From contig NZ_FMZU01000017.1 of the NCBI RefSeq assembly GCF_900101545.1, positions 1 through 64,000 of the forward strand: 64,000 nt of DNA, read 5' to 3'. Positions within the stretch are counted from its first letter, which is position 1; each line of letters starts with the position of its first letter. This document shows positions 13,284 through 27,682 of the stretch, piece after piece. Source of the DNA: Variovorax sp. CF079. Lineage in GTDB: Bacteria > Pseudomonadota > Gammaproteobacteria > Burkholderiales > Burkholderiaceae_C. The notes beneath the pieces were generated by a model. It had not been told where the DNA came from and ran no database searches. It saw only the letters and a list, made by a program, of their open reading frames with translations. A program made the position numbers and the translations under genes.

Positions 13284-14207
13284 TCAGTCGTCGACGCCGG
13301 CCAGCAGATCCTGCGACTCGTCGTCGAAGCCCGGCACCGGTTGCGCCTTGGCCAGGGCCATCCAGAGGCTGAAGGGCATGCGCGGCAGCGCGCGGTGCAC
13401 GGCCGAGCGCGCCACGACCAGCCGGCCCTCTTGCGCGATCAGCACGCCGCATTCGGCCGGAATCTCGTCGGGCTCGCCGATGGGCCGGCCCTTCGCATCG
13501 CAGCCCAGCACGTACCAGCACTCGCCGCCGAGGTCGAGGTAGGCAGCGCGCTTGTCGGGCTTGCGCAGGTCGCTCAGCAGGTCGGCGCGATTGACCTTGA
13601 CCTCGTGGACGATCGGTTGCGCATAGGCCTCGACGCTGGTGTTGCGGATCGAGAAGACGTCCGGCCGCGCGATGCACCAGCGCGGCTTGTCGCCCTCGTT
13701 CACCGCCGGCAGCCGCGCCCGCAAACTTAAGGCCCGCCAGGCCACACGGCCGGCGCGCGTCATCTCGCGCGCGACCTGCTCGACCAGCGCCTCGTGCTTG
13801 GAGAGCACCGCGCGGTTGACGACCAGCGTGCGCGCAATGTGCGCGATGCCGGCATCGGTGACACGCAGCGTTTCGTGGCCCGGCGCCGAGCGCACGCGTT
13901 CCAGCAGGCCGGCGGCCAGCAGGTCGACCTCGATGGCGTCGCAGCAAGGCCAGCCGGCCGAGCGATAGACCTCGCGCAGGCGGCGCGCATGCAGGCGCCC
14001 CAGCGCCGCCGCGCCGGGCGGCGGATCGGCCACCGGCGGCGGCGCGCCTGGCTCGGTCATCGGCGGATCAACCGCCGGCGGGTCGCCCTCCGGCGGCGGC
14101 GGTGGCGGTTGCGCGGGCGTTGGCGGGATCGGCAGATCGGGCGCGGGCGGCGGCGGCCCGATGGGTGCGTCGACGTCGATGCCCTGCGAGGCGAGTGCTG
14201 CTGTCAT
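13284..14207 (-). CDS. Uncharacterised protein with MmcB-like PD-(D/E)XK nuclease core
   Basis: This 307-residue protein has three parts. Residues 1-65 are a low-complexity Pro-rich leader. Residues 70-125 look like a winged-helix: RRLREVYRSAGWPCCDAIEV, LLAAGLLERV, then LRVTDAG. Residues 175-240 match a PD-(D/E)XK nuclease core: RPDVFSI, then IVHEVKVNRADLLSDLRKPDK, then CWYVLG. The Pro-Asp, the Glu-x-Lys and the Asp-x-Arg-Lys-Pro-Asp-Lys stretch resemble MmcB-type DNA-repair proteins. Neither neighbour is a DNA-repair gene. I read it as a nuclease-fold protein, either catalytic or DNA-binding only; the assignment rests on motif resemblance. Confidence 0.68.
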   Translation of the reverse strand: MTAALASQGIDVDAPIGPPPPAPDLPIPPTPAQPPPPPPEGDPPAVDPPMTEPGAPPPVADPPPGAAALGRLHARRLREVYRSAGWPCCDAIEVDLLAAGLLERVRSAPGHETLRVTDAGIAHIARTLVVNRAVLSKHEALVEQVAREMTRAGRVAWRALSLRARLPAVNEGDKPRWCIARPDVFSIRNTSVEAYAQPIVHEVKVNRADLLSDLRKPDKRAAYLDLGGECWYVLGCDAKGRPIGEPDEIPAECGVLIAQEGRLVVARSAVHRALPRMPFSLWMALAKAQPVPGFDDESQDLLAGVDD

Positions 14208-14254
14208 CGCGCAAGGTTAGCGAAAAGCAGCGGCCGAGGCGAGTGCGGGCGCGG

Positions 14255-14932
14255 CTACGGGCGCTGGCCCGCAGACCCGGACATGACCACCACCACCTGC
14301 GCCTGCGTCTTCCCGACCGAGAGATAGACATGCCCCACGCTGCTGTCGAAGTAGACCGACTCGTTGCGCCGCACCAGCACCGACTCACCGGTCTCGAAGC
14401 GGATGCGCACGGCGCCGGACAAGACCATGCAGAACTCGTGGCCGGGATGTCGGATGAAATCGGCGAACTCGTTTTCGTGGCGCGCCAGGATGCGGCCGTG
14501 CATCGGCTCCATGGTCTTCGCCGGATAGTCGGTGCACAGCATCCGGTATTCGTACTGGTCGCTGGCATAGCTCGGCGAACTGTCGAGCGCCGAATGAACG
14601 AAGGTCGGCGCCGCCTTGCCCGTGCGGCGCGCGGCCGGATCGAACAGGCGCGAGATATCGACGTTCAGCGCCCGCGCGACAGCAGCGAATTTCTCGTAGC
14701 TGATGGAGATCTGCCCGAGCTCCATCTTCGACAGCGTGGACAAGGCCACGCCCGAACGAGCGGACAACTCCTTCAGCGTGAGCTTGGCGGCCTTGCGGAT
14801 CGAACGCAGCCGCTCGCCCATGACATCGCGTCCTATCGATTCGACGGGCGCGGCGGCCGATCTGGTGCGGCGCGATTTCTTCGCGGGCGGCGTGGGCGGA
14901 GGACGCAAGGGACGGACCATGGGGCGGCGCAT
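14255..14932 (-). CDS. XRE family regulator with cupin domain
   Basis: This 225-residue protein carries a basic N-terminal tail, an XRE helix-turn-helix at about residues 38-95 (LRSIRKAAKLTLKELSARSG, ALSTLSKMELGQISISYEKF) and a C-terminal cupin at about residues 140-215 (HGRILARHENEFADFIRHPG, EFCMVLSGAVRIRFETGESV). The layout is that of PuuR-like repressors of amine and amino-acid catabolism, where the cupin senses the metabolite. It is divergent from a D-amino-acid dehydrogenase / Bug / amidase operon. A 20-bp palindrome in the shared spacer and a second copy inside that operon are its likely targets. Confidence 0.88.
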   Translation of the reverse strand: MRRPMVRPLRPPPTPPAKKSRRTRSAAAPVESIGRDVMGERLRSIRKAAKLTLKELSARSGVALSTLSKMELGQISISYEKFAAVARALNVDISRLFDPAARRTGKAAPTFVHSALDSSPSYASDQYEYRMLCTDYPAKTMEPMHGRILARHENEFADFIRHPGHEFCMVLSGAVRIRFETGESVLVRRNESVYFDSSVGHVYLSVGKTQAQVVVVMSGSAGQRP

Positions 14933-14955
14933 TATGGCGCACGGGGTGGTGCGGC

Positions 14956-14985
14956 TTGACCGTACCTGTGCCCCGGAACGATAAT
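14956..14985 (+). promoter_or_regulatory. Putative promoter of the D-amino-acid operon
   Basis: TTGACC (14956-14961), an 18-base spacer and GATAAT (14980-14985) make a good sigma-70 promoter 25 bases before the oxidoreductase start. Its -10 box overlaps the left edge of the palindromic operator, which is consistent with repression. Confidence 0.6.
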
Positions 14986-15002
14986 TCTCGTAAATGAGAA
15001 TT
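14983..15002 (+). promoter_or_regulatory. Operator copy 1 for the XRE-cupin regulator (putative)
   Basis: AATTCTC-GTAAAT-GAGAATT is a perfect inverted repeat with 7-base arms and a 6-base centre, located between the regulator and the oxidoreductase. An almost identical element recurs at 16214-16233. Confidence 0.65.
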
Positions 15003-15010
15003 CAGATTCC

Positions 15011-16147
15011 ATGAGCACGCCGCCTTCCTTCGACTTCGCAGTGATCGGCGCCGGCATCGCCGGCGCATCGCTCGCATTCCATTTGGCCGGGCGCTCCAGC
15101 GTGATCGTGCTGGAGCGCGAGTCCCAGCCCGGCTATCACTCGACCGGCCGCTCCGCCGCGATGTTCATGGAAAGCTACGGCACGCCGGCCATCCGGGCGC
15201 TGACGCGCGCGAGCCGCGCGTTCTACGAGCAACCGCCCGAAGGCTTCGCCGCGCATCCGCTGCTCACGCCGCGCGGCGCGCTCTACATCGCCAGCGAGGC
15301 CCAGTTGCAGGAGCTGCAGGCGACTTTCGAGGCGCTGTCGCGCAACGCCCCGAACGTCAGCCTCATCACCGGCGAGGAGGCCGTTTCGATGGTGCCGGTG
15401 CTGCGCGCCGACCGTGTGCATGCGGCCATCTTCGAGCAGGATGCACAGGACATCGACGTCCATGCACTCCATCAGGGCTACCTCAAGGGCATGCGGGCCC
15501 GCGGCGGCACGCTGCGCTGCAACGCGGAACTCGCGGCCGCGGTGCGTACCGAGGGTGTCTGGCAGCTCTCCCTGGCCGATGGCCAGCAGGTGCAAGCGCG
15601 CTGCCTGGTCAACGCGGCCGGCGCGTGGGCCGACCAGGTCGCGGACCTGTGCAAGGTTCCACGCGTGGGGCTCGAGCCGCGGCGGCGCAGCGCCTTTACC
15701 TTCGCGGCGCCCGAGGGCCTCGACTGCGCGGCATGGCCGGCGGTCGTCGGCATCGACGAAAGCTTCTACTTCAAGCCGGATGCCGGCCAACTGCTGGGTT
15801 CCCCGGCCAATGCCGACCCGGTTGTGCCGCACGACGTGGTGCCCGAGGAACTGGACGTGGCCCTGGGCATCCACCACATCGAGAACGCCACCACCTTGTC
15901 GATCCGTCGCCCGAGCCATGCGTGGGCCGGACTGCGCTCCTTCGTGCCGGACGGCGACTTCGTGCTCGGCTGGGAAGAGAGCTGCGAAGGATTCTTCTGG
16001 CTTGCCGGCCAGGGCGGCTATGGCATCCAGACGGCGGCGGGCGCGTCGGAGCTTGCAGCAGCCTTGCTGCACCACGAGGCGCCGCCGGCGCACCTGCTCG
16101 CCCACGGCATGGATCCCCTTGCATTCCGGCCGGGGCGACTGCGTTGA
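15011..16147 (+). CDS. DauA-like FAD-dependent D-amino acid dehydrogenase
   Basis: This 378-residue protein resembles Pseudomonas D-arginine dehydrogenase (DauA) along its whole length. It has FAD motif VIGAGIAGASLAFHLAG near residues 11-27, PGYHSTGRSAAMF, DESFYFKPDAGQLLGSPANA, WAGLRSFVPDGDF and GQGGYGIQTAAGASE. From family knowledge, the carboxylate-binding Arg222, Tyr249 and Arg305 of DauA are conserved. However, the Glu87 that grips the arginine side chain is replaced (Ala90 here, in TPRGALYI), and His48 is replaced by Met51. The enzyme therefore probably oxidises a different, more neutral D-amino acid. It is first in an operon with a Bug receptor and an amidase, with an operator at its promoter. 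Confidence 0.82.
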   Translation: MSTPPSFDFAVIGAGIAGASLAFHLAGRSSVIVLERESQPGYHSTGRSAAMFMESYGTPAIRALTRASRAFYEQPPEGFAAHPLLTPRGALYIASEAQLQELQATFEALSRNAPNVSLITGEEAVSMVPVLRADRVHAAIFEQDAQDIDVHALHQGYLKGMRARGGTLRCNAELAAAVRTEGVWQLSLADGQQVQARCLVNAAGAWADQVADLCKVPRVGLEPRRRSAFTFAAPEGLDCAAWPAVVGIDESFYFKPDAGQLLGSPANADPVVPHDVVPEELDVALGIHHIENATTLSIRRPSHAWAGLRSFVPDGDFVLGWEESCEGFFWLAGQGGYGIQTAAGASELAAALLHHEAPPAHLLAHGMDPLAFRPGRLR

Positions 16148-16213
16148 CTCCGGCGCCGCAGGGGTTTCTACTGGCACGATTCATGCAGGTTTTCGGCTTT
16201 GCTCGGATATGAG

Positions 16214-16233
16214 AATTCTCGTTAAAGAGAATT
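16214..16233 (+). promoter_or_regulatory. Operator copy 2 for the XRE-cupin regulator (putative)
   Basis: AATTCTC-GTTAAA-GAGAATT repeats the arms of the site at 14983-15002 exactly and differs only in the 6-base centre. It lies 26 bases before the Bug receptor start, inside the operon, which suggests a second regulated promoter. An overlapping GAGAATTCTC extends it to the left. Confidence 0.65.
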
Positions 16234-16259
16234 TTCGAATCATCACCGAAAGGACTTCC

Positions 16260-17243
16260 ATGCAACTTCGCATCAGCGCCCTTCTTCATGCTGCAGCATG
16301 GACCTGCGCATCCCTCGCGACCACGCTGTCCGCCCATGCCGCCGGCTATCCGGAAAAACCGGTGCAGATCATCGTGCCGTTCCCGCCGGGCGGCGCCGGC
16401 GACGTGATGGGGCGCCTGCTGTCGCGGCAGCTCGAAGCCCGGCTCGGGCAGCCGGTGATCGTCGACAACAAGCCCGGCGCGGGCACCGCCATCGGCGCGC
16501 AGTTCGTGGCGAATGCCAAACCCGACGGCTACACGCTGCTCTTGAGCTCCAATTCCACCTACACCCTCAACCCGGCCATCCAGCCCAAGCTGTCCTACGA
16601 CCCGATCAAGGCCTTCGAGCCGCTGGGCATGGTGGCCAACCTGGCGCTAGTCCTGGTGGCCCATCCGACGGTGCAGGCGAGCAGCGTGCAACAGCTCGTT
16701 GCAGCCGCCAAGGCCGAGCCCGACAAGTACATGTACGGCTCCTTCGGCAACGGCACCGTGTCCCACTTCGCCGGAGAGATGTTCAAGTCGGCGGCCGGCG
16801 TCAAGCTCACGCACGTGCCCTACCGCGGCAGTGCGCCGGCGATGACCGACCTGGTCGGCGGACAGATCCCGCTGGCCTTCGACAGCGTGGTGGCCGCGGT
16901 GCCGCACATCAAGACCGGCAAGATCAAGCCCCTGGCGGTCACCACCGCTGCACGCTCGACACTGCTGCCCGATGTGCCGACCGTGGCCGAGAGCGGCTAC
17001 CCCGGCTACCAGATGAGCTCCTGGATCGTGCTGGTCGCGCCGCGCGGCTTGCCGCCGGAGGTCAAGCAGAAGCTCGAGCAGGCCCTGGCCGCCTCCATGG
17101 AGGACGCCGAGATGCGCGAAAAGCTCAAGGGCGTGGGCTTCGAGCCCGCCTATGCGCCCATCAAGGACTGGAGCGGCATGGTCGGCAAGGACATCGCCCG
17201 GCTGCGCAAGATCGCGGAACAATCGCAGATCAAACCCGACTGA
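16260..17243 (+). CDS. Bug/TctC-type periplasmic receptor
   Basis: This 327-residue tripartite-tricarboxylate-transporter receptor has a clear signal peptide (cut after SAHA near residue 27). Family motifs include YPEKPVQIIVPFPPGGAGDVMGR, KPGAGTAIGAQFVA, PDGYTLLLSS, LTHVPYRGSAPAMTDLVGGQ and LPDVPTVAESGYPGY. Bug proteins bind small carboxylates or amides in the periplasm for TctAB-like permeases; none is in this window. An AAAGGAC ribosome site supports the ATG. It lies between a D-amino-acid dehydrogenase and an amidase and has its own operator copy, so it probably captures the substrate of that pathway. Confidence 0.9.
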   Translation: MQLRISALLHAAAWTCASLATTLSAHAAGYPEKPVQIIVPFPPGGAGDVMGRLLSRQLEARLGQPVIVDNKPGAGTAIGAQFVANAKPDGYTLLLSSNSTYTLNPAIQPKLSYDPIKAFEPLGMVANLALVLVAHPTVQASSVQQLVAAAKAEPDKYMYGSFGNGTVSHFAGEMFKSAAGVKLTHVPYRGSAPAMTDLVGGQIPLAFDSVVAAVPHIKTGKIKPLAVTTAARSTLLPDVPTVAESGYPGYQMSSWIVLVAPRGLPPEVKQKLEQALAASMEDAEMREKLKGVGFEPAYAPIKDWSGMVGKDIARLRKIAEQSQIKPD

Positions 17244-17270
17244 CCTTTTCCCTTTGGGCCTCGCACATCC

Positions 17271-18800
17271 ATGTCATCCGGCAACACCCTTCCAGACCAG
17301 TCCGCCGTCGAACTGCGCCGCATGATCGGCAGCCGCGAGGTTTCGCCCGTCGAGGTGCTGGAGTCCAGCATCGCGCGCATCGAGGCGGTGAACCCGGCGG
17401 TCAACGCGCTCACCGCCACCTGCATCGAACGGGCGCGCGAAGAAGCCCGGCGCGCCGAGGCACAGGTGCTGCGCGGCGAAGCGCTCGGCAGCCTGCACGG
17501 CCTGCCCATCGGCATCAAGGACCTGGAAGACACCGCCGGCCTGCTGACCACCTACGGCTCGCCGCGCTTCCGCGGCCAAGTGCCCGCGCGCGACCACGCG
17601 CTCGTCGCGCGCCTGCGCGCCGCGGGTGCCATCGTGGTCGGCAAGACCAACGTGCCGGAAATGGGCGCCGGCGCCAACACGCGCAACCCGGTCTGGGGCG
17701 CCACCGGCAATCCCTTCGATCCGATGCGCAATGCGGGCGGTTCGTCGGGCGGCTCGGCCGCTGCGCTCGCCACCGGCATGCTGCCGCTGGCCACCGGCTC
17801 CGACACCGGCGGGTCGCTGCGCATTCCCGCGGCACTGTGCGGGGTGGTCGGCTTCCGTCCCTCGCCGGGGCTGGTGCCGGTGGAACGCAGGCAGCTCGGC
17901 TGGACGCCGATCTCGGTGATCGGGCCGATGGGGCGTACCGTGGCCGACACCTGTCTGCAGTTCGGCGCCCAGGTCGGACAGCATGCCTGCGACCCGCTCA
18001 CCTATGCAGTGGACGGCCGCACGTTCACGCAGCTTGCGCCCGCGGACCTGGCTTCGCTGCGCGTCGGCTACACCGAAGACTTCGGCGTCTGCCCGGTGGA
18101 CGACGGCATCCGCACGCTGTTCCGCCAGCGCATCGCAACGATCCGCCACCTGTTCCGAAGCGTCGACGCGGTGCGGCCCGACATGGGCGAAGCCGACCGC
18201 TGTTTCGACGTGGTCCGTGCAGCAAGTTTCGTCGCGGCATTCCGCGAGGCCTACGAAACCGACCCGGGCTCGCTCGGGCCCAACGTGCGCGCCAACTACG
18301 AGATGGGCGCGAACATGACGATGGCAGACGCCACCTGGGCGCACCTGGAGCAGACGCGCATCTTCCGTTCGTTCCAGGCACTCTACGAAGACTTCGACCT
18401 CATCCTGTCGCCGACCACGCCGGTGTCGCCCTTCGCCTGGACGCTGCCCTACCTCGATCAGATCAACGGCCAGCCGCTGCGCAACTACTACCACTGGCTG
18501 GGCCTGACCTACGTCGTAACGCTGGCCACCAACCCCGCGCTCGCGCTGCCCTGCGGTGTGGACGCGGGCGGCATGCCCTTCGGCCTTCAACTCATCGGCC
18601 GCTTCCGCGGCGATGCCGAACTGCTGTCGGTGGCGCATGCGATGGAAGCCGCTTTCGCGCGCATGCCCGAGACGCAGCGGCCGCAACCGGATCTCGCTCG
18701 CCTCGCGAAGCCCGTGCCCGAGTTGAAATCGATCGTGACGCATCCGCCGGTTCTCGATGCAGCCACGCCCGCCGCGACCGGAGGCCATGCGGCGGTATGA
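17271..18800 (+). CDS. Amidase signature family amidase
   Basis: This 509-residue protein belongs to the amidase signature family, which hydrolyses C-N bonds using a Ser-cisSer-Lys triad. The lysine is in LPIGIKDLEDTAG (near residue 83), the cis-serine in RNAGGSSGGSAAALA, and the nucleophile in GSDTGGSLRIPAALCG. The C-terminal FGLQLIGRFRGDAELLSVAH motif is normal. Members act on amino-acid amides, carbamoyl compounds or aryl amides. It begins 27 bases after the Bug receptor in an operon starting with a DauA-like dehydrogenase, suggesting that an amide of a D-amino acid is imported, hydrolysed and oxidised. The exact substrate is not visible. Confidence 0.88.
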   Translation: MSSGNTLPDQSAVELRRMIGSREVSPVEVLESSIARIEAVNPAVNALTATCIERAREEARRAEAQVLRGEALGSLHGLPIGIKDLEDTAGLLTTYGSPRFRGQVPARDHALVARLRAAGAIVVGKTNVPEMGAGANTRNPVWGATGNPFDPMRNAGGSSGGSAAALATGMLPLATGSDTGGSLRIPAALCGVVGFRPSPGLVPVERRQLGWTPISVIGPMGRTVADTCLQFGAQVGQHACDPLTYAVDGRTFTQLAPADLASLRVGYTEDFGVCPVDDGIRTLFRQRIATIRHLFRSVDAVRPDMGEADRCFDVVRAASFVAAFREAYETDPGSLGPNVRANYEMGANMTMADATWAHLEQTRIFRSFQALYEDFDLILSPTTPVSPFAWTLPYLDQINGQPLRNYYHWLGLTYVVTLATNPALALPCGVDAGGMPFGLQLIGRFRGDAELLSVAHAMEAAFARMPETQRPQPDLARLAKPVPELKSIVTHPPVLDAATPAATGGHAAV

Positions 18801-18821
18801 GCCACCGCAGGCGACCCCGCC

Positions 18822-20882
18822 TCACTCCTCGTCGCGCACCCGGTGCTGTCCCATCAGCGTCTGCTGCAGCGCCGGCGGCACCGCCTCGTAGTGCGAGAGC
18901 TCGATGGTGTAGCGCCCCTGCCCGCTGGTCAGCGCATTGAGCCGCGACTGGTAGCCCGACAACTCTGACAGCGGCACCTGCCCCCGGATCAGCACCGTAC
19001 CCGCCGAGCCGTTGGAGGTGCCCGTGACCAGGCCGCGCCGCCCCGACAGGTCGCCCGTGACGTCGCCGATCGCCGTGTCCGGCGCGGCGATGTCGATCTG
19101 CACCACCGGCTCCAGCACGATCGCGCGCGCCGCCTGGATGGCCGCGATGAAGGCCTTGCGGCCGGCGGTGGCGAAGGCGATGTCCTTGCTATCGACGCTG
19201 TGGTGCTTGCCGTCGTAGACCACCACGCGCACGTCGACCACCGGGTAGCCGGCGATCGCGCCGCGTTCGAGCACCTCGCGCACGCCCTTCTCGACCGCGG
19301 GGATGAACTGGCTCGGAATGGTTCCGCCCCGCACCTCGTCGGCGAACTCGAAGCCGGAACCGCGCGGCAGCGGCTCGATGCGCAGGAACACCTCGCCGAA
19401 CTGGCCGGCGCCGCCGGTCTGCTTCTTGTGGCGGTGGTGGCCCTCGGCCGGCACCGTCACGGTCTCGCGGTAGGCGATGCGCGGCGGCCGCGTGTTGACC
19501 TCGAAGCGGTAGACCTCGCGCAGCCGCTCGAGCAGCACGCGCAGGTGCAGCTCGCCCAGGCCGTAGACGATGGTCTCGTTGGTGACCACCACATGCTCCA
19601 GCCGCAGGCAGGGATCCTCGTCGACCAGCTTGCCGAGGATCTCCCACATGCGCTGCTCGTCGCCATGCCGCTTGGGCTCGATCGCCAGCCCGTGCACCGG
19701 GATCGGGAATTCCAGCGGCGCGAGATGAACCCGGTCGTCCTCGGCCGCGTCGTGCAGCACGGCGTCGAAATGGATCTCGTCGACCTTGGCCACGGCCGCG
19801 ATGTCGCCCGGCAGCACGCGCGACACCTCCACATGGTCCTTGCCCTGCAGCAAGAACAGGTGGCCCACTTTGAAGGGCTTGCGCCCGTCGCCGATGTAGA
19901 GCTGGCTGTCGCGCGTGAGCGTGCCCTGGTGCACGCGGAAAATGCCCATCTTGCCGACATAGGGGTCGACCGTGACCTTGAACACGTGCGCCAGCACGTG
20001 CAGCGAAGGGTCGGGCCTGGCCTCCACGGGCTTGGCCTCGGCACCCTCGCCGACGATGAAGTTCGGCGGGTTGGCCTCGGTCGGGTCGGGCAGGAGCTTG
20101 ACGATCACGTCCAGCAACTCGGCCACGCCGGCGCCGCTGCGCGACGAGACGAAGCACACCGGGATCAGGTGGCCTTCGCGCAGCGCCTGCTCGAGCGGCG
20201 CGTGCAGCTCGGCCGGATCCACGTCGCCCTCTTCGAGATAGCGTTCGACGAAGGCCGCGTCGACCTCGACCACCTGCTCCACCAGCGCGCGGTGCGCCGC
20301 TTCGACGGGGCCGAAGTCGGACTGCCCGAAGCGGTTGAAGAAGCAGTCCACCACCTGCTTGCCGACCCCGTCGGGCAGGTTCAGCGGCAGGCATTGGCGG
20401 CCGAAGGTGGCCTGGATGTCGGCCAGCAGGCCCGCCAGCGAGACGCCCTGCGAGTCGATCTTGTTGACGATGATCATGCGGGCGAGGTGGCGCGAGGCCG
20501 CGTACTCCATCATGCGCACGGCCATCGGCTCGATGCCGGTGGCGGCATTGATGACCACCGCCGCCGTTTCGACCGCCTCCAGCGCCGGCAGGCTCTGGCC
20601 GAGGAAGTCGGGCCCGCCGGGCGTGTCGATGAAATGGATGCGCGTGCCGGCATGCGTCAGGTGCATCACCGATGCGTTGAGAGAATGCTGCATGCGCCGC
20701 TCGATCGGATCGTGGTCGCTGACGGTACTGCCCCGCTCGACGCTGCCCGGCGCGCCGATGGCACCCGCCTTGTACAGCAGGGCCTCGGCCAGGGTGGTCT
20801 TGCCCGAGGCCGAGGCCCCGACGAGCGCCAGTGTGCGCACCGTCTCCATTTCGGCCGCGAGGCCGTTCGATCGGCTTGGCAT
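18822..20882 (-). CDS. EF-G-like GTPase (FusA2 type)
   Basis: This 686-residue protein has the domain order of elongation factor G: a GTPase domain, a beta-barrel domain II, and domains III-V ending in IEPLPRGSGFEFADEVRGG and AIGDVTGDLSGRRGLV. The GTPase motifs depart from true EF-G. The P-loop is GASASGKTT, not AHIDAGKTT; the G3 motif is DTPGGPDF, lacking the catalytic His of DTPGH; and NKID is intact. Such divergent paralogues (EF-G2-like) accompany a genuine fusA elsewhere and are not thought to be the main translocase. A GGGAGGAG ribosome site supports this start. The gene stands alone, convergent with the amidase. Confidence 0.85.
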   Translation of the reverse strand: MPSRSNGLAAEMETVRTLALVGASASGKTTLAEALLYKAGAIGAPGSVERGSTVSDHDPIERRMQHSLNASVMHLTHAGTRIHFIDTPGGPDFLGQSLPALEAVETAAVVINAATGIEPMAVRMMEYAASRHLARMIIVNKIDSQGVSLAGLLADIQATFGRQCLPLNLPDGVGKQVVDCFFNRFGQSDFGPVEAAHRALVEQVVEVDAAFVERYLEEGDVDPAELHAPLEQALREGHLIPVCFVSSRSGAGVAELLDVIVKLLPDPTEANPPNFIVGEGAEAKPVEARPDPSLHVLAHVFKVTVDPYVGKMGIFRVHQGTLTRDSQLYIGDGRKPFKVGHLFLLQGKDHVEVSRVLPGDIAAVAKVDEIHFDAVLHDAAEDDRVHLAPLEFPIPVHGLAIEPKRHGDEQRMWEILGKLVDEDPCLRLEHVVVTNETIVYGLGELHLRVLLERLREVYRFEVNTRPPRIAYRETVTVPAEGHHRHKKQTGGAGQFGEVFLRIEPLPRGSGFEFADEVRGGTIPSQFIPAVEKGVREVLERGAIAGYPVVDVRVVVYDGKHHSVDSKDIAFATAGRKAFIAAIQAARAIVLEPVVQIDIAAPDTAIGDVTGDLSGRRGLVTGTSNGSAGTVLIRGQVPLSELSGYQSRLNALTSGQGRYTIELSHYEAVPPALQQTLMGQHRVRDEE

Positions 20883-23055: not shown

Positions 23056-26000
23056 TCAGTGGAAATCGCGGCTCTTGTTGCTCTTGGCCAGCCGGCCGAG
23101 CAGCGGCGTCAGGTCCTTGAAGCCGGTGGCCACCAGGTGGCGCACCTCGCCGCCGCTGTCCACGTCGCGCTGCCAGGTGCCCTGCACCGCGAGCAGGTGC
23201 GACTTGAGCAGCGGCTCGCGCCAGGCCTCGACCACGTGGCTCCAGACGATCACGTTGACGTTGCCGGTCTCGTCTTCGAGCGTGACGAAGATGGTGTCCT
23301 TGGCGGTCTGCGGGCGCTGGCGTCCCATCACGATGCCGCAGGCGCGCACGGTCTGGCCGCTCGGCACCTCGCGCAGCTGTTCGGCGCTCGATAGCCTCAT
23401 GCGCGCGAGCCGCGGGCGCAGCAGCGCCAGGGGATGGCGGCGCAGCGTGAAGCCCAGCGAGGCGTAGTCGCCCACGATCTCCTCGCCCTCGGGCGCGAGG
23501 GGCAGTTGCAGGGCCGCTTCGTGGATGGGCACGCCCTTGAGCAGCGCCGGCGCACGGCGCTGCGCGGTGGCATCCCACACCTGCTGGCGGCGGTGGCCCG
23601 AGAGCGTGATCAAGGCATCGGCCGCTGCGAGCGCCGCCATGTCCTTGGCGTCGAGTTCGGCGCGCAGGGCCAGGTCTTCGGTGCTGGTGAAGGCGGCCTG
23701 GGCGCGGGCTTCGAGCATGCGCTTCGCGCCGGCCTCGCTGAGGCTGGCGATGCGGCGCAGGCCGAGGCGCACGGCAGGTTGGCTCAGGTTGCCGAGGCGG
23801 GTGGCGAAGCGCGGGTTGACGGCAGGTGGCACCTCTGCCGGCGACTCCAGGGTGCAATCCCATTCGCTCGCCGTCACATCCACCGGCCGCACCTCGACGC
23901 CATGACGCCGCGCATCCTGCACCAGCTGCGAGGGCGAGTAGAAACCCATGGGCTGCGAGTCGAGCAGCGCGGCCAGGAAGCAGGCGGGCTCGTGCAGCTT
24001 GAGCCAGCTGCTCACGATCACCAGCAGCGCGAAGCTCGCGGCATGGCTTTCGGGGAAGCCATAGTCGCCGAAACCCAGCACCTGCTGGTAGATGGCTTCG
24101 GCAAAGGCGCGGTCGTACTCTCTGTCGACCATGCCCTCCACCAGCTTGCCGTGGAACTTGTCGATGCCGCCCTTGCGCTTCCAGGCCGCCATCGCGCGAC
24201 GCAGGCGATCGGCCTCGTCGGGCGTGAAGCCGGCGGCGATGATCGCGATCTGCATCACCTGCTCCTGGAAGATCGGCACGCCCAGCGTGCGCTCGAGCGC
24301 GGGGCGCAAAGCTTCCTTCGCGTATTCGATGGGAATGCCTTTGCGCACCTTCTCGCGGTTCTTCAGGTACGGGTGCACCATGCCGCCCTGAATCGGCCCC
24401 GGCCGCACGATCGCAACTTCGATCACCAGGTCTTCATAAGTTCTCGGCTTGAGGCGCGGCAGCATCGACATCTGCGCCCGGCTCTCGATCTGGAACACGC
24501 CGATGGTGTCGGCATCGCAGATCATGTCGAACACGGCCTCGTCGTCGTTCGGTATCTGGTGCATTTGCAGCGCCGTCTTGCGCCAGCCGTTGACCATGGC
24601 CAGCGCGCGCCGGATCGCGCTCAGCATGCCGAGCGCCAGCACGTCGACCTTGAGCATGCCCATGGCCTCGAGATCGTCCTTTTCCCACTGGATGACGGAG
24701 CGGTCCTTCATCGACGCGTTCTCGACCGGCACCAGGCGCGTGAGCTTGGTCTGCGTGAGCACGAAGCCGCCCACGTGCTGGCTCAGGTGGCGCGGAAAGC
24801 CCTTGAGCTGCTGCGTGAGCTCGATCCACTGGTACAGCTTCCGCATGTCTTCCCGCAGGTTCACGCGCTGCATCGCTTCTTCGAGGCGCTGGTCGAGCAC
24901 GACGTGGTCGAACCAGTAGTGGTCCTTGGCGAACTCGTCGACGAGACGCGCATCGATGCCCAGCGCCTTGCCCACGTCGCGCAACGCGCTGCGCGAGCGG
25001 TAGCAGATCACGACCGCGGCGATGGCGGCGCGGTCGCGGCCGTATTTCTGGTAGATGTACTGGATCACCTCCTCGCGCCGCTGGTGCTCGAAGTCGACGT
25101 CGATGTCGGGCGGCTCGCGGCGCTCGCGGCTCAAAAAGCGCTCGAACAGCAGGTGGCCGGTATCGGGGTCGATGGCGGTGATGCCGAGGCAGTAGCAGAC
25201 GGCCGAGTTGGCGGATGAGCCGCGGCCCTGGCACAGGATGTCTTTGGAGCGTGCGAAATGCACGATGTCTTCGACGGTGAGGAAGAACATCTCGTAGTGA
25301 AGTTCGACGATCAGGTCGAGCTCGTGCTGGACCTGCGCTTGCACCTTCTGCGGAATGCCCGCGGGATATTTCACTCGCGCGCCCTCCCAGGTCTTGCGCA
25401 CCAGCGTCTCGGCCGGCGTCTCGCCGCTCGCTACGCTCTCGAGCGGGTACTTGTAGTGCTCGCGGATCACGTCGAGATCGAAGCGGCAGCGCCGCGCGAC
25501 TTCGAGCGTGTTGGCGAGCAGCTCGGCCGGATAGAGCTCGGCCAGGCGCAGGCGCGAACGCAGATGCCGCTCGGCATTGGACTGCAGCGCAAAGCCGCAC
25601 TCGGCCACCGGCCTGCCTTCGCGCACGGCGGTGATCACGTCCTGCAGCGGCTTGCGCGAACGCACGTGCATGTGCACGTCGCCGGCCGCCACCAGCGGCA
25701 CGCCGGTTTGCGCACTCGCCTGCTGCAAGGCGGCGAGCCAGAGGTCGTCGTCGAGCTCGTTCTGCAACTCGACCGCAATCCAGAGATGCCCCTCGAAAAG
25801 ACGCGCGGCCTCAGCCACATCGGCGCAGAGCGCTGCAACATCGGGCATGGCGCCCGGCGTGCGCAGCGGCACGAAAAGAATTTCGCAATCGCGCAGCGAG
25901 GCCACGTCGCTTTGCGCCCAGCTCACGCGGTAGCTGCCCTTGGGCGCCGTGGTGCGCGCCGCGGTGATGAACTCGCAGAGATTGCCCCAGCCTTCGAGGT

Positions 26001-26376
26001 CGTGCGCGATCGTCACCAGCTTGAAGCGCTCGAACGCGAACTCGCTGCCGAGCAGCAGCCGGAACGGATGTCGTTCCGTGGGGGCCAGCGTTTCGAGGTA
26101 TTCCCTGAGCCCCTCGTGCGCGCGCACCACGCCGGCCACCGAGCATTCGTCGGTGATCGCGAGCGCCTCGTAGCCGAGGTCGTAGGCACGCTGCACCAGC
26201 TCTTCGGGGTGCGATGCGCCACGCTGGAAGCTGAAGTTCGTGATGCAGTGCAGTTCGGCATAAGAAGGCAGGCTCGGCGCCTGCAGCGGCTCGGGCTGCG
26301 ACCGCCACGGCAGCGCATGCACCGTGGCCGAGGCCCGTGCGCGCTTCTGGATCTGCTTGTCGCTGAGTTCAGGCAT
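23056..26376 (-). CDS. dnaE2: Error-prone DNA polymerase DnaE2
   Basis: This 1106-residue C-family polymerase performs SOS mutagenesis across DNA lesions with ImuA and ImuB. The N-terminal PHP domain starts YAELHCITNFSFQRGASHPE, and the palm contains EPPDIDVDFEHQRREEVIQY, with the Asp-x-Asp-x-Asp-type metal site. Later motifs include SHAASFALLVIVSSWLKLHE and a C-terminal OB-fold (RACGIVMGRQRPQTAKDTIF). The PHP first motif reads H-x-I-T-N, lacking the second His of replicative DnaE, as is usual for DnaE2. The start overlaps the imuB stop by 8 bases. It is the last gene of the LexA-controlled cassette. Confidence 0.95.
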   Translation of the reverse strand: MPELSDKQIQKRARASATVHALPWRSQPEPLQAPSLPSYAELHCITNFSFQRGASHPEELVQRAYDLGYEALAITDECSVAGVVRAHEGLREYLETLAPTERHPFRLLLGSEFAFERFKLVTIAHDLEGWGNLCEFITAARTTAPKGSYRVSWAQSDVASLRDCEILFVPLRTPGAMPDVAALCADVAEAARLFEGHLWIAVELQNELDDDLWLAALQQASAQTGVPLVAAGDVHMHVRSRKPLQDVITAVREGRPVAECGFALQSNAERHLRSRLRLAELYPAELLANTLEVARRCRFDLDVIREHYKYPLESVASGETPAETLVRKTWEGARVKYPAGIPQKVQAQVQHELDLIVELHYEMFFLTVEDIVHFARSKDILCQGRGSSANSAVCYCLGITAIDPDTGHLLFERFLSRERREPPDIDVDFEHQRREEVIQYIYQKYGRDRAAIAAVVICYRSRSALRDVGKALGIDARLVDEFAKDHYWFDHVVLDQRLEEAMQRVNLREDMRKLYQWIELTQQLKGFPRHLSQHVGGFVLTQTKLTRLVPVENASMKDRSVIQWEKDDLEAMGMLKVDVLALGMLSAIRRALAMVNGWRKTALQMHQIPNDDEAVFDMICDADTIGVFQIESRAQMSMLPRLKPRTYEDLVIEVAIVRPGPIQGGMVHPYLKNREKVRKGIPIEYAKEALRPALERTLGVPIFQEQVMQIAIIAAGFTPDEADRLRRAMAAWKRKGGIDKFHGKLVEGMVDREYDRAFAEAIYQQVLGFGDYGFPESHAASFALLVIVSSWLKLHEPACFLAALLDSQPMGFYSPSQLVQDARRHGVEVRPVDVTASEWDCTLESPAEVPPAVNPRFATRLGNLSQPAVRLGLRRIASLSEAGAKRMLEARAQAAFTSTEDLALRAELDAKDMAALAAADALITLSGHRRQQVWDATAQRRAPALLKGVPIHEAALQLPLAPEGEEIVGDYASLGFTLRRHPLALLRPRLARMRLSSAEQLREVPSGQTVRACGIVMGRQRPQTAKDTIFVTLEDETGNVNVIVWSHVVEAWREPLLKSHLLAVQGTWQRDVDSGGEVRHLVATGFKDLTPLLGRLAKSNKSRDFH

Positions 26377-27682
26377 ACATGCCCTGCAGGTACCAGCGCG
26401 GCGCCTCGGAAGTGAAGCAGGACGAAGGCCGCTCGCGATAGATCCACACCAGGCCGGCCTTCGGGCTTTCCGCGATGTAGTAATCGCGCACCACGGGCTG
26501 GCCCTCGCCCCACCAGCCGGCCTCCACCCGCTGCGGCCCGACCAGCTTGCGCAGGCGGCCCTGGTAGCACGGGCGCTCGCCTTCCATGTCCAGCCGCAGG
26601 GGCTCGCGCAACAGCCACGATGGATAGAGCGCATCCGGCTGCGAGACAGGCGACGCATCGGCGCGCGCCTTGTGCAATGCGGGCTTCCACACCTGCTTGC
26701 ATTCCGGCCGATGGTCGGCCTGTGCGACCGCGCGCAGCACCTGCTGCGCGCCCAGCCGCGCGCTGAGCCGCTCGACCAGCTCGTGCAGCTTGTCGCCCTT
26801 GCGGTTGTCTTCCGGCAGAAAGCTCGTGCTGGCGCCGGCCCAGGGCGTGGTCTCGATCGAGCGCAGGCGCAGCCAGCTGGCGGGCGCGGCCAGCGTCGTG
26901 AGCGCGAGCCGCTCGGCCAGAAGACGCCGCAGGTGCGCCATGTCCTGCGTGGGCTCGGCCGTGCGCACCGTGACCTGCTGGTGCGGCGGCAGGTCGACGC
27001 CGTTGAAGCGCCGGAGGTCGAGCGTCCATTGCAGTTCGAGCGCCACCGCGCCGCGCTGGCGCGCGGCGAGCCAGATCTGCAGCGCGCTGAGCAGGCGGTT
27101 GGCCGACCACATGAGTTCGGGCGCGCTTTCGGCCAGCGCGGGCAGCTCCAGCTTCTGCTCGAACGCGTCGGGCAGCGTGAGCCAGGCATGGCTTTCGGGG
27201 CGCAGGCCCCAGGCGGCATCGAGCGCTTCGCGCAGTTCCTTGCCGAAGCGGCGCGTGAGCCCGCCGCGCGGCAGCGCCGCCACGTCGCCCCAGGTGCGGC
27301 AACCCAGGTGCGCCAGCACGTCGAGGTGATCGCGCGCCGCGCTCAGCGTGTCGAGCGGCAGGTCGGAAGACGAGTCGCCCGGCGGCTCTTCGCCGCGCGC
27401 GAACATGCGCAGCCGTGCGAGCGCGATCAGGCTGGTCGCGCCCTGTGCCCGCTGCACGGGCACCGGCGCGGGATTGGTTCGCGCCAGCTCGCGCATCAGC
27501 GCCAGGCGCCCGCCCCAGAGCCGCTCGCAGGCCGAGACTTCGAGCAGCAGCGCCTCGTCGTCGACCCAGACGACGCGCGGCGTGAACTGCAAGGCCCACC
27601 AGCCGAGCGCCTCGAGGGGCGGCAACGGCAGCGCGGTATCGGAGAGGAGCTCAGGCGGCCAGCGCAATGCGATCCAGTGCAT
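26369..27682 (-). CDS. imuB: ImuB, inactive Y-family polymerase-like mutasome protein
   Basis: This 437-residue product is ImuB, the adaptor that links ImuA and DnaE2 to the beta clamp. It has the Y-family layout (WIALRWPP, a palm, helix-hairpin-helix LAHLGCRTWGDVAALP, a little-finger domain) but lacks the full set of catalytic acidic residues. The C-terminal VRDYYIAESPKAGLVWIYRE motif is the conserved ImuB tail. It overlaps imuA upstream by 32 bases and dnaE2 downstream by 8, so the three are tightly co-translated. Confidence 0.92.
   Translation of the reverse strand: MHWIALRWPPELLSDTALPLPPLEALGWWALQFTPRVVWVDDEALLLEVSACERLWGGRLALMRELARTNPAPVPVQRAQGATSLIALARLRMFARGEEPPGDSSSDLPLDTLSAARDHLDVLAHLGCRTWGDVAALPRGGLTRRFGKELREALDAAWGLRPESHAWLTLPDAFEQKLELPALAESAPELMWSANRLLSALQIWLAARQRGAVALELQWTLDLRRFNGVDLPPHQQVTVRTAEPTQDMAHLRRLLAERLALTTLAAPASWLRLRSIETTPWAGASTSFLPEDNRKGDKLHELVERLSARLGAQQVLRAVAQADHRPECKQVWKPALHKARADASPVSQPDALYPSWLLREPLRLDMEGERPCYQGRLRKLVGPQRVEAGWWGEGQPVVRDYYIAESPKAGLVWIYRERPSSCFTSEAPRWYLQGMYA

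Follow-up and report, generated by a model that had tools for sequence, protein, structure and literature searches.

A probable DbuR-type XRE-cupin regulon for D-amino-acid use with a Bug receptor and an amidase in Variovorax sp. CF079

Introduction

The XRE-cupin protein DbuR of Pseudomonas putida is a repressor (Fulton and Downs, PMC12724383), and passages of that paper describe a 44-base-pair (bp) DNase footprint containing AATTCTCATATATTAGAATT and a predicted −10 element, two bands in DbuR gel shifts, and D-tyrosine and branched-chain D-amino acids as dbu substrates. The D-arginine dehydrogenase DauA of Pseudomonas aeruginosa (PDB 3nyc) has a pocket that passages of PMC11193025 describe as wholly polar, with Glu87 and Glu246 contacting the guanidinium, and according to the same passages its E246L and Y249F variants gain O2 reactivity. 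Here we analyse a locus of Variovorax sp. CF079 at positions 14,255 to 18,800 of the window, the stretch of 64,000 nucleotides at positions 1 to 64,000 of contig NZ_FMZU01000017.1, in which an earlier note made from the letters alone had seen an XRE-cupin regulator, two operators, a D-amino-acid enzyme, a Bug receptor and an amidase. Protein families, conservation and the published DbuR footprint bear out that composition, and we consider it probable that the locus is a DbuR-type regulon for D-amino-acid use with a downstream module of Bug protein and amidase. To the note our analysis adds kinship with DbuR and DbuA, a tandem operator with a 16-bp pitch, a predicted −10 in the shared half-site, a possible division into two transcription units, and a sister system with different half-sites, pitch and recognition helix.

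Results

Two operators unique to the locus

The palindrome AATTCTC-N6-GAGAATT occurs exactly at both places where the earlier note had read it, 14983–15002 and 16214–16233. Operator 1 (14983–15002) lies inside a 78-bp divergent region and is conserved in relatives. Operator 2 (16198–16233) is a tandem of overlapping palindromes, in which a copy with 3 mismatches (16198–16217) sits 16 bp upstream of the exact one. The two had been called identical, which holds for their arms but not for their spacers (GTAAAT vs GTTAAA) nor for the tandem form of the second.

Scoring palindromes by mismatches, with shuffles as the control in the window and the reversed pattern as the control in the whole genome, we found five matches at up to 3 mismatches in the window against a shuffle mean of 0.43. 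Across the own genome (6,847,006 bases in 71 contigs, the locus lying on a 189-kilobase contig) there were two exact copies, both in this locus, and none with 1 mismatch, confirming the impression that no further copies exist; two copies with 2 mismatches and 28 with 3 brought the total to 32, against 5 for the control. The 28 copies exceed the reversed control but not the ~46 expected from the scaled-up window shuffle mean, and were therefore not taken as sites. The two 2-mismatch copies (L003 and L004) were rejected as regulon members, no related regulator having been recognised beside them: the arms of one are different (TTCAC/GTGAA), its neighbours being an open reading frame (ORF) that is TetR-like by eye and another Bug gene; inspection by eye revealed no regulator beside the other; and both look like chance. 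For the palindromes of the locus itself, an origin as a chance repeat is ruled out by the whole-genome scan and by their conservation in relatives.

A DbuR-like regulator and its conserved tandem operator

The regulator P0001 (14255–14932, minus strand, 225 residues) is DbuR-like and combines an XRE helix-turn-helix (residues 42–95; Pfam HTH_3, 1.5e-12) with a C-terminal cupin (residues 159–216; Cupin_2, 2e-9). In a tree of 37 rows it fell in a 25-row clade (98/95 support) with Pseudomonadaceae DbuR-type, Marinobacter and Marinobacterium proteins, a clade that also takes in the regulators of loci with the published DbuR palindrome; L039, one of its members, sits on a very long branch, and its position is unsure. 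Its nearest named loci are two of Variovorax, L005 and L006, at 95 and 91% identity. Among 61 genomes (the own, 36 of the genus and 24 of the order, with 48 first-look candidates scored in the larger ones), 26 gave a regulator match at 1e-30, those other than the own being at most 42% identical. Seven of 369 genomes of the class, the own included, gave a match at 1e-25 with seven candidates scored each, and the other six were 30–36% identical. Among the matches listed from 146 plasmid records identity reached at most 46%; three plasmid regions were examined, one of which (L061) is of the AATTTGC type treated below.

Conservation of the operator was followed in 37 loci with a related regulator, taken from a scan of genome contigs and including several near-duplicates, hence not independent; they come from Variovorax, Polaromonas, Rhodoferax, Rhizobacter, Ramlibacter, Bordetella, Achromobacter, Schauerella, Candidimonas, Verticiella, Pusillimonas and others, and also from Marinobacter, Marinobacterium and Vreelandella. 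Over the whole locus, 30 had a best match with no more than 1 mismatch and 34 one with no more than 2. When only the 300 bp upstream of the regulator were considered, the corresponding counts were 28 and 32 (L040 measured from the second piece of a split regulator match; L038 and L039 having other gene orders), and none of the shuffles, 30 per locus, reached 1 mismatch. The split match in L040 (6001–6547, Polaromonas sp. P2-4) possibly reflects a frameshift or sequencing error; the operator there is kept.

A parallel set of 398 genomes of one family, presumably Pseudomonadaceae by an OprF match and with seven candidates scored per genome, gave a regulator match at 1e-25 in 37. In each of the 30 loci used for operator counts there was a site at up to 2 mismatches together with a 16-bp tandem, the site having at most 1 mismatch in 15, and eight loci held the exact published DbuR palindrome. 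Adding the 30 of the 37 loci that share it, palindromes exactly 16 bp apart form a tandem operator in 60 of 67 related loci; in the 37-locus set a second overlapping palindrome lies 15 bp away in three more, and offsets of 10–30 are otherwise represented by one locus at 20. Operator 2 itself recurs without mismatch in L005 and with 1 mismatch in L006, in both cases accompanied by an overlapping 3-mismatch copy. Such a tandem may explain both the 44-bp footprint and the two gel-shift bands of DbuR.

Where the exact DbuR palindrome is present, regulators are ~50–53% and enzymes ~61–64% identical to those of the window, the comparison being with these Pseudomonadaceae loci. Seven Pseudomonadaceae regions, four of them with the published palindrome, were studied in more depth: all encode the enzyme (61–66% identical to the window enzyme P0002), six a Rid gene (not found in L096), and six the regulator among called genes (50–55%), the regulator of L097 being found by tblastn alone at 50%. 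In L093 the ORF that follows the Rid gene had no Pfam match at 1e-10 and is a putative DbuC by its position.

A predicted promoter at operator 1

A predicted enzyme-gene promoter (TTGACC-18-GATAAT, 14956–14985, plus strand), whose −10 shares 3 bases with the beginning of operator 1, was the sole sigma-70-like match across 14200–18900 (1 found, 0.3 expected), placing an AATTCTC-type 20-bp palindrome at the predicted −10 of a divergent D-amino-acid enzyme gene. We compared this placement over 40 regions, namely the two window sites, 32 of the 37 loci and six of the seven Pseudomonadaceae regions. In 23 of them the best sigma-70-like match had its −10 where the shared half-site starts, and three more (window site 1, L005 and L006) showed the equivalent position ahead of a lone palindrome. 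Of 12 loci examined for the start of the enzyme gene, eight (L007, L009, L011, L017, L018, L033, L037 and L040, the last with 1 mismatch in its operator) have their only usable start codon, over the 60 bases searched, within the operator. The transcripts of these eight may carry little or no leader.

An FAD enzyme with a less polar pocket than DauA

The gene behind operator 1 (15011–16147, plus strand) encodes the flavin adenine dinucleotide (FAD)-dependent D-amino-acid dehydrogenase/oxidase P0002, a DbuA-type protein of 378 residues (Pfam DAO, 1e-56) with a single homologue at E ≤ 1e-20 in the own genome, and its closest solved relative is DauA (E 2.2e-132). We aligned 74 rows with DauA, seven of them longer re-fetches of loci already counted; pocket positions 50, 240 and 242 were compared in addition to those named in passages of PMC11193025. 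Tyr53, Arg222, Glu246, Tyr249 and Arg305 are kept in the window enzyme and in all 74 rows, whereas His48 and Thr50 of DauA are Met, and Glu87 and Met240 are Ala, in the window enzyme, which thus retains Glu246 and lacks Glu87 of the guanidinium pair. Neither Glu at 87 nor His at 48 occurs in any of these 74 rows. In a midpoint-rooted tree of 28 rows, a 100/100 split set the window enzyme and 21 dbuA-type rows against DauA and five sister enzymes of the genus, so that both the split and the pocket residues, with the dbu-like loci as reference, assign P0002 to the DbuA type. Because Glu87 and His48 of the wholly polar DauA pocket are lost, the window enzyme appears to have a less polar pocket, and neutral or hydrophobic D-amino acids are its likeliest substrates. 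A literature search found no paper joining D-arginine dehydrogenase with a cupin regulator, and one for DauA and DauR brought up a single item, on anaerobic design of P. putida.

The Bug-amidase pair and the gene content of related loci

Operator 2 sits in a 112-bp gap ahead of a gene (16260–17243, plus strand) for a Bug/TctC-type periplasmic solute-binding protein of 327 residues (Pfam TctC, 1.2e-75), the solved relatives of which include Bug27 and BugD. The earlier note had placed both sites before genes of one operon next to the regulator; the placement holds, but with the 112-bp gap in between, the Bug-amidase pair may be transcribed separately from the enzyme gene. As to its statement that no TctAB permease is nearby, the own genome has seven TctA genes, none of them on the contig of the locus, which speaks against a tripartite tricarboxylate transporter here; TctB was not searched for. 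The next gene (17271–18800, plus strand) encodes a hydrolase of 509 residues that belongs to the amidase signature family (Pfam Amidase, PF01425, 1.7e-94; 317.9 bits against a cut-off of 27), its best NCBIfam model being NF005686 at 406.3 bits, under the cut-off of 465. Variovorax paradoxus reportedly has a D-selective amidase; our literature searches did not show it, and we take it as a lead only.

At the 37 loci, homologues of the enzyme (at least 300 bits), the Bug protein (at least 250 bits) and the amidase (at least 300 bits) were found in 27, 26 and 21, respectively. Seven of the ten loci without the enzyme (L023, L027, L028, L030, L031, L034 and L036) share gene clusters c4 and c5, and four of these seven also c9, the genes of these clusters in L036 being a Rid-family gene, a gene without NCBIfam match and a D-amino-acid-dehydrogenase-like gene; the other three (L013, L025 and L026) have neither the enzyme nor the c4/c5 arrangement. 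Further D-amino-acid-related genes in such loci are the Rid genes of L038 and L036 and a gene for D-serine ammonia-lyase (L024, 2384–3712, Bordetella genomosp. 4) that is flanked by two Bug genes of its own operon. An aminotransferase cluster stands inside the operons of four loci (L007, L016, L021 and L040), class III in L007, the one scanned.

Two long ORFs lie downstream on the minus strand of the window: one at 18822–20882, elongation-factor-G-like GTPase by eye, is convergent with the amidase gene, and one at 23056–27219, DnaE2-like error-prone DNA polymerase by eye, has an over-long start.

A sister system with AATTTGC operators

A sister system resembles that of the window in having a related XRE-cupin regulator and enzyme and palindromes with a 6-bp spacer, but differs in AATTTGC half-sites, a 15-bp pitch and an S-R-A-E-R recognition helix. 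In six regions from other genomes of the genus (L103–L108) the regulators are 36–41% and the adjoining enzymes 56.6–58.3% identical to those of the window. Among 12 sister loci (11 of the genus and one on a Comamonas plasmid), AATTTGC-N6-GCAAATT was found at up to 2 mismatches in 11 and the AATTCTC type within 2 mismatches in none; the tandem pitch was 15 bp in eight, 16 bp in none, and 23 and 29 bp in single cases. Conversely, among loci of the AATTCTC type the AATTTGC pattern at up to 2 mismatches turned up in one of the set of 37 and in none of the set of 30, and in the own genome it had no copy below 2 mismatches and seven at 2, against 0 for the control.

Eleven sister regulators carry S-R-A-E-R where the window's clade has S-K-M/I-E-L, a Lys/Arg position that corresponds to a base-contacting position of the 434 repressor. 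L045 and L060 have S-K-A-E-R and no TGC half-site; the distant L054 has S-R-V-E-S and no TGC half-site either, so that Arg alone is not a rule. The helix and half-site changes between the two systems may go back to a single evolutionary event, so that their association need not be causal.

Discussion

In the reading we prefer, a DbuR-type regulon for D-amino-acid use, the regulator would bind operator 1 at the −10 of the enzyme promoter and operator 2 ahead of the Bug-amidase pair, keeping both off, and, given that operator 1 lies in the divergent region, would perhaps limit its own gene too. The cupin domain would meet an effector, probably a D-amino acid or its oxidation product, leading to derepression. 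The Bug protein would then capture a substrate, and the amidase would free an amino acid from its amide or an acylated derivative. Oxidation of the D-amino acid by the FAD enzyme would give an imino acid, which breaks down in water to a keto acid and ammonia. Such a route of capture, hydrolysis and oxidation is plausible.

Several observations weigh against this reading. Three of the 37 loci (L023, L025 and L038) lack a site within 2 mismatches. Besides the window, only its closest relatives L005 and L006 have operator 2 before the Bug gene, L038 having another gene order and 3-mismatch sites, so that operator 2 may have been acquired recently. Neither of the genes that would mark a dbu operon, Rid2 and DbuC, is present here. 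According to passages of PMC12724383, D-branched-chain amino acids seem to act as inducers in P. putida at least in part independently of DbuR, and a simple model of release by an effector may therefore be wrong. Of the 27 enzyme-bearing loci, six give no amidase match of 300 bits or more, L014 among them with a 71-residue fragment match. This last point, together with the pair's own operator and preceding gap, would suit a separate amide pathway under the same regulator that does not feed the D-amino-acid enzyme. We regard such a separation as improbable, since Bug and amidase homologues recur near the regulator, in another gene order in L038, and since the sister locus L103, the one of L103–L108 scanned with Pfam, encodes a different hydrolase, an M81 (MlrC-like) metallopeptidase, and a family 5 solute-binding protein (SBP_bac_5) beside its related enzyme.

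The promoter data also count partly against plain repression at both sites. In 14 of the 40 regions the best promoter-like match lies away from the shared half-site, and these include window site 2 as well as L093–L095, all three of the examined regions with the exact DbuR palindrome; at operator 2, neither the search of 14200–18900 nor the 40-region count gave a good promoter. The regulator could instead be an activator, or a roadblock at site 2, and the title of a work cited in PMC12724383 describes the XRE regulator NceR as mediating activation; we nevertheless give this rather low odds, site 1 touching the predicted −10 as for the repressor DbuR and passages of PMC7901475 terming P. aeruginosa XRE-cupin factors transcription inhibitors. 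That the regulon serves basic D-amino acids, with an enzyme functionally of the DauA type and the amidase as a side enzyme, is very improbable, as DauA is disfavoured as the enzyme's identity by the Ala at position 87 and by the tree.

The D-amino-acid regulon may also be seen, as we tentatively propose, as one form of a modular arrangement for release and oxidation under DbuR-type repressors, in which a single D-amino-acid enzyme would be paired with exchangeable modules for hydrolysis, uptake and deamination. Two regulator dimers would bind the overlapping palindromes cooperatively, with the −10 in the shared half-site; pitch (15/16 bp) and half-site (CTC/TGC) would have changed together with Lys69 to Arg; and the amidase would be D-selective and feed the pathway. 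A stereoselective amidase, if true, would be of practical use, and the natural half-site change between the sister systems offers a ready test of DNA choice by XRE-cupin regulators. More broadly, an operon type of many Burkholderiales is tied to an experimentally studied repressor, from which operator, likely substrates and inducer class can be predicted.

Among the P. aeruginosa XRE-cupin local repressors described in passages of PMC7901475, the architecture, the palindromic sites and the few local metabolic targets are similar to those of the window, and the three consensus sequences are said there to be quite different. With DauA, the window enzyme shares the family and the five conserved pocket residues, but differs at residues 48, 50, 87 and 240 and lies on the opposite side of the main tree split. 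The nearest likeness is to dbuABC, in which an XRE-cupin regulator and a FAD D-amino-acid enzyme are likewise divergent; judged by passages of PMC12724383, the DbuR site has the same spacing as the window operator and the same arms save one base, and in both the site lies at the predicted −10. By contrast, the window has a Bug protein and an amidase where dbu has Rid2 and the transporter DbuC, and carries a second operator before the Bug gene.

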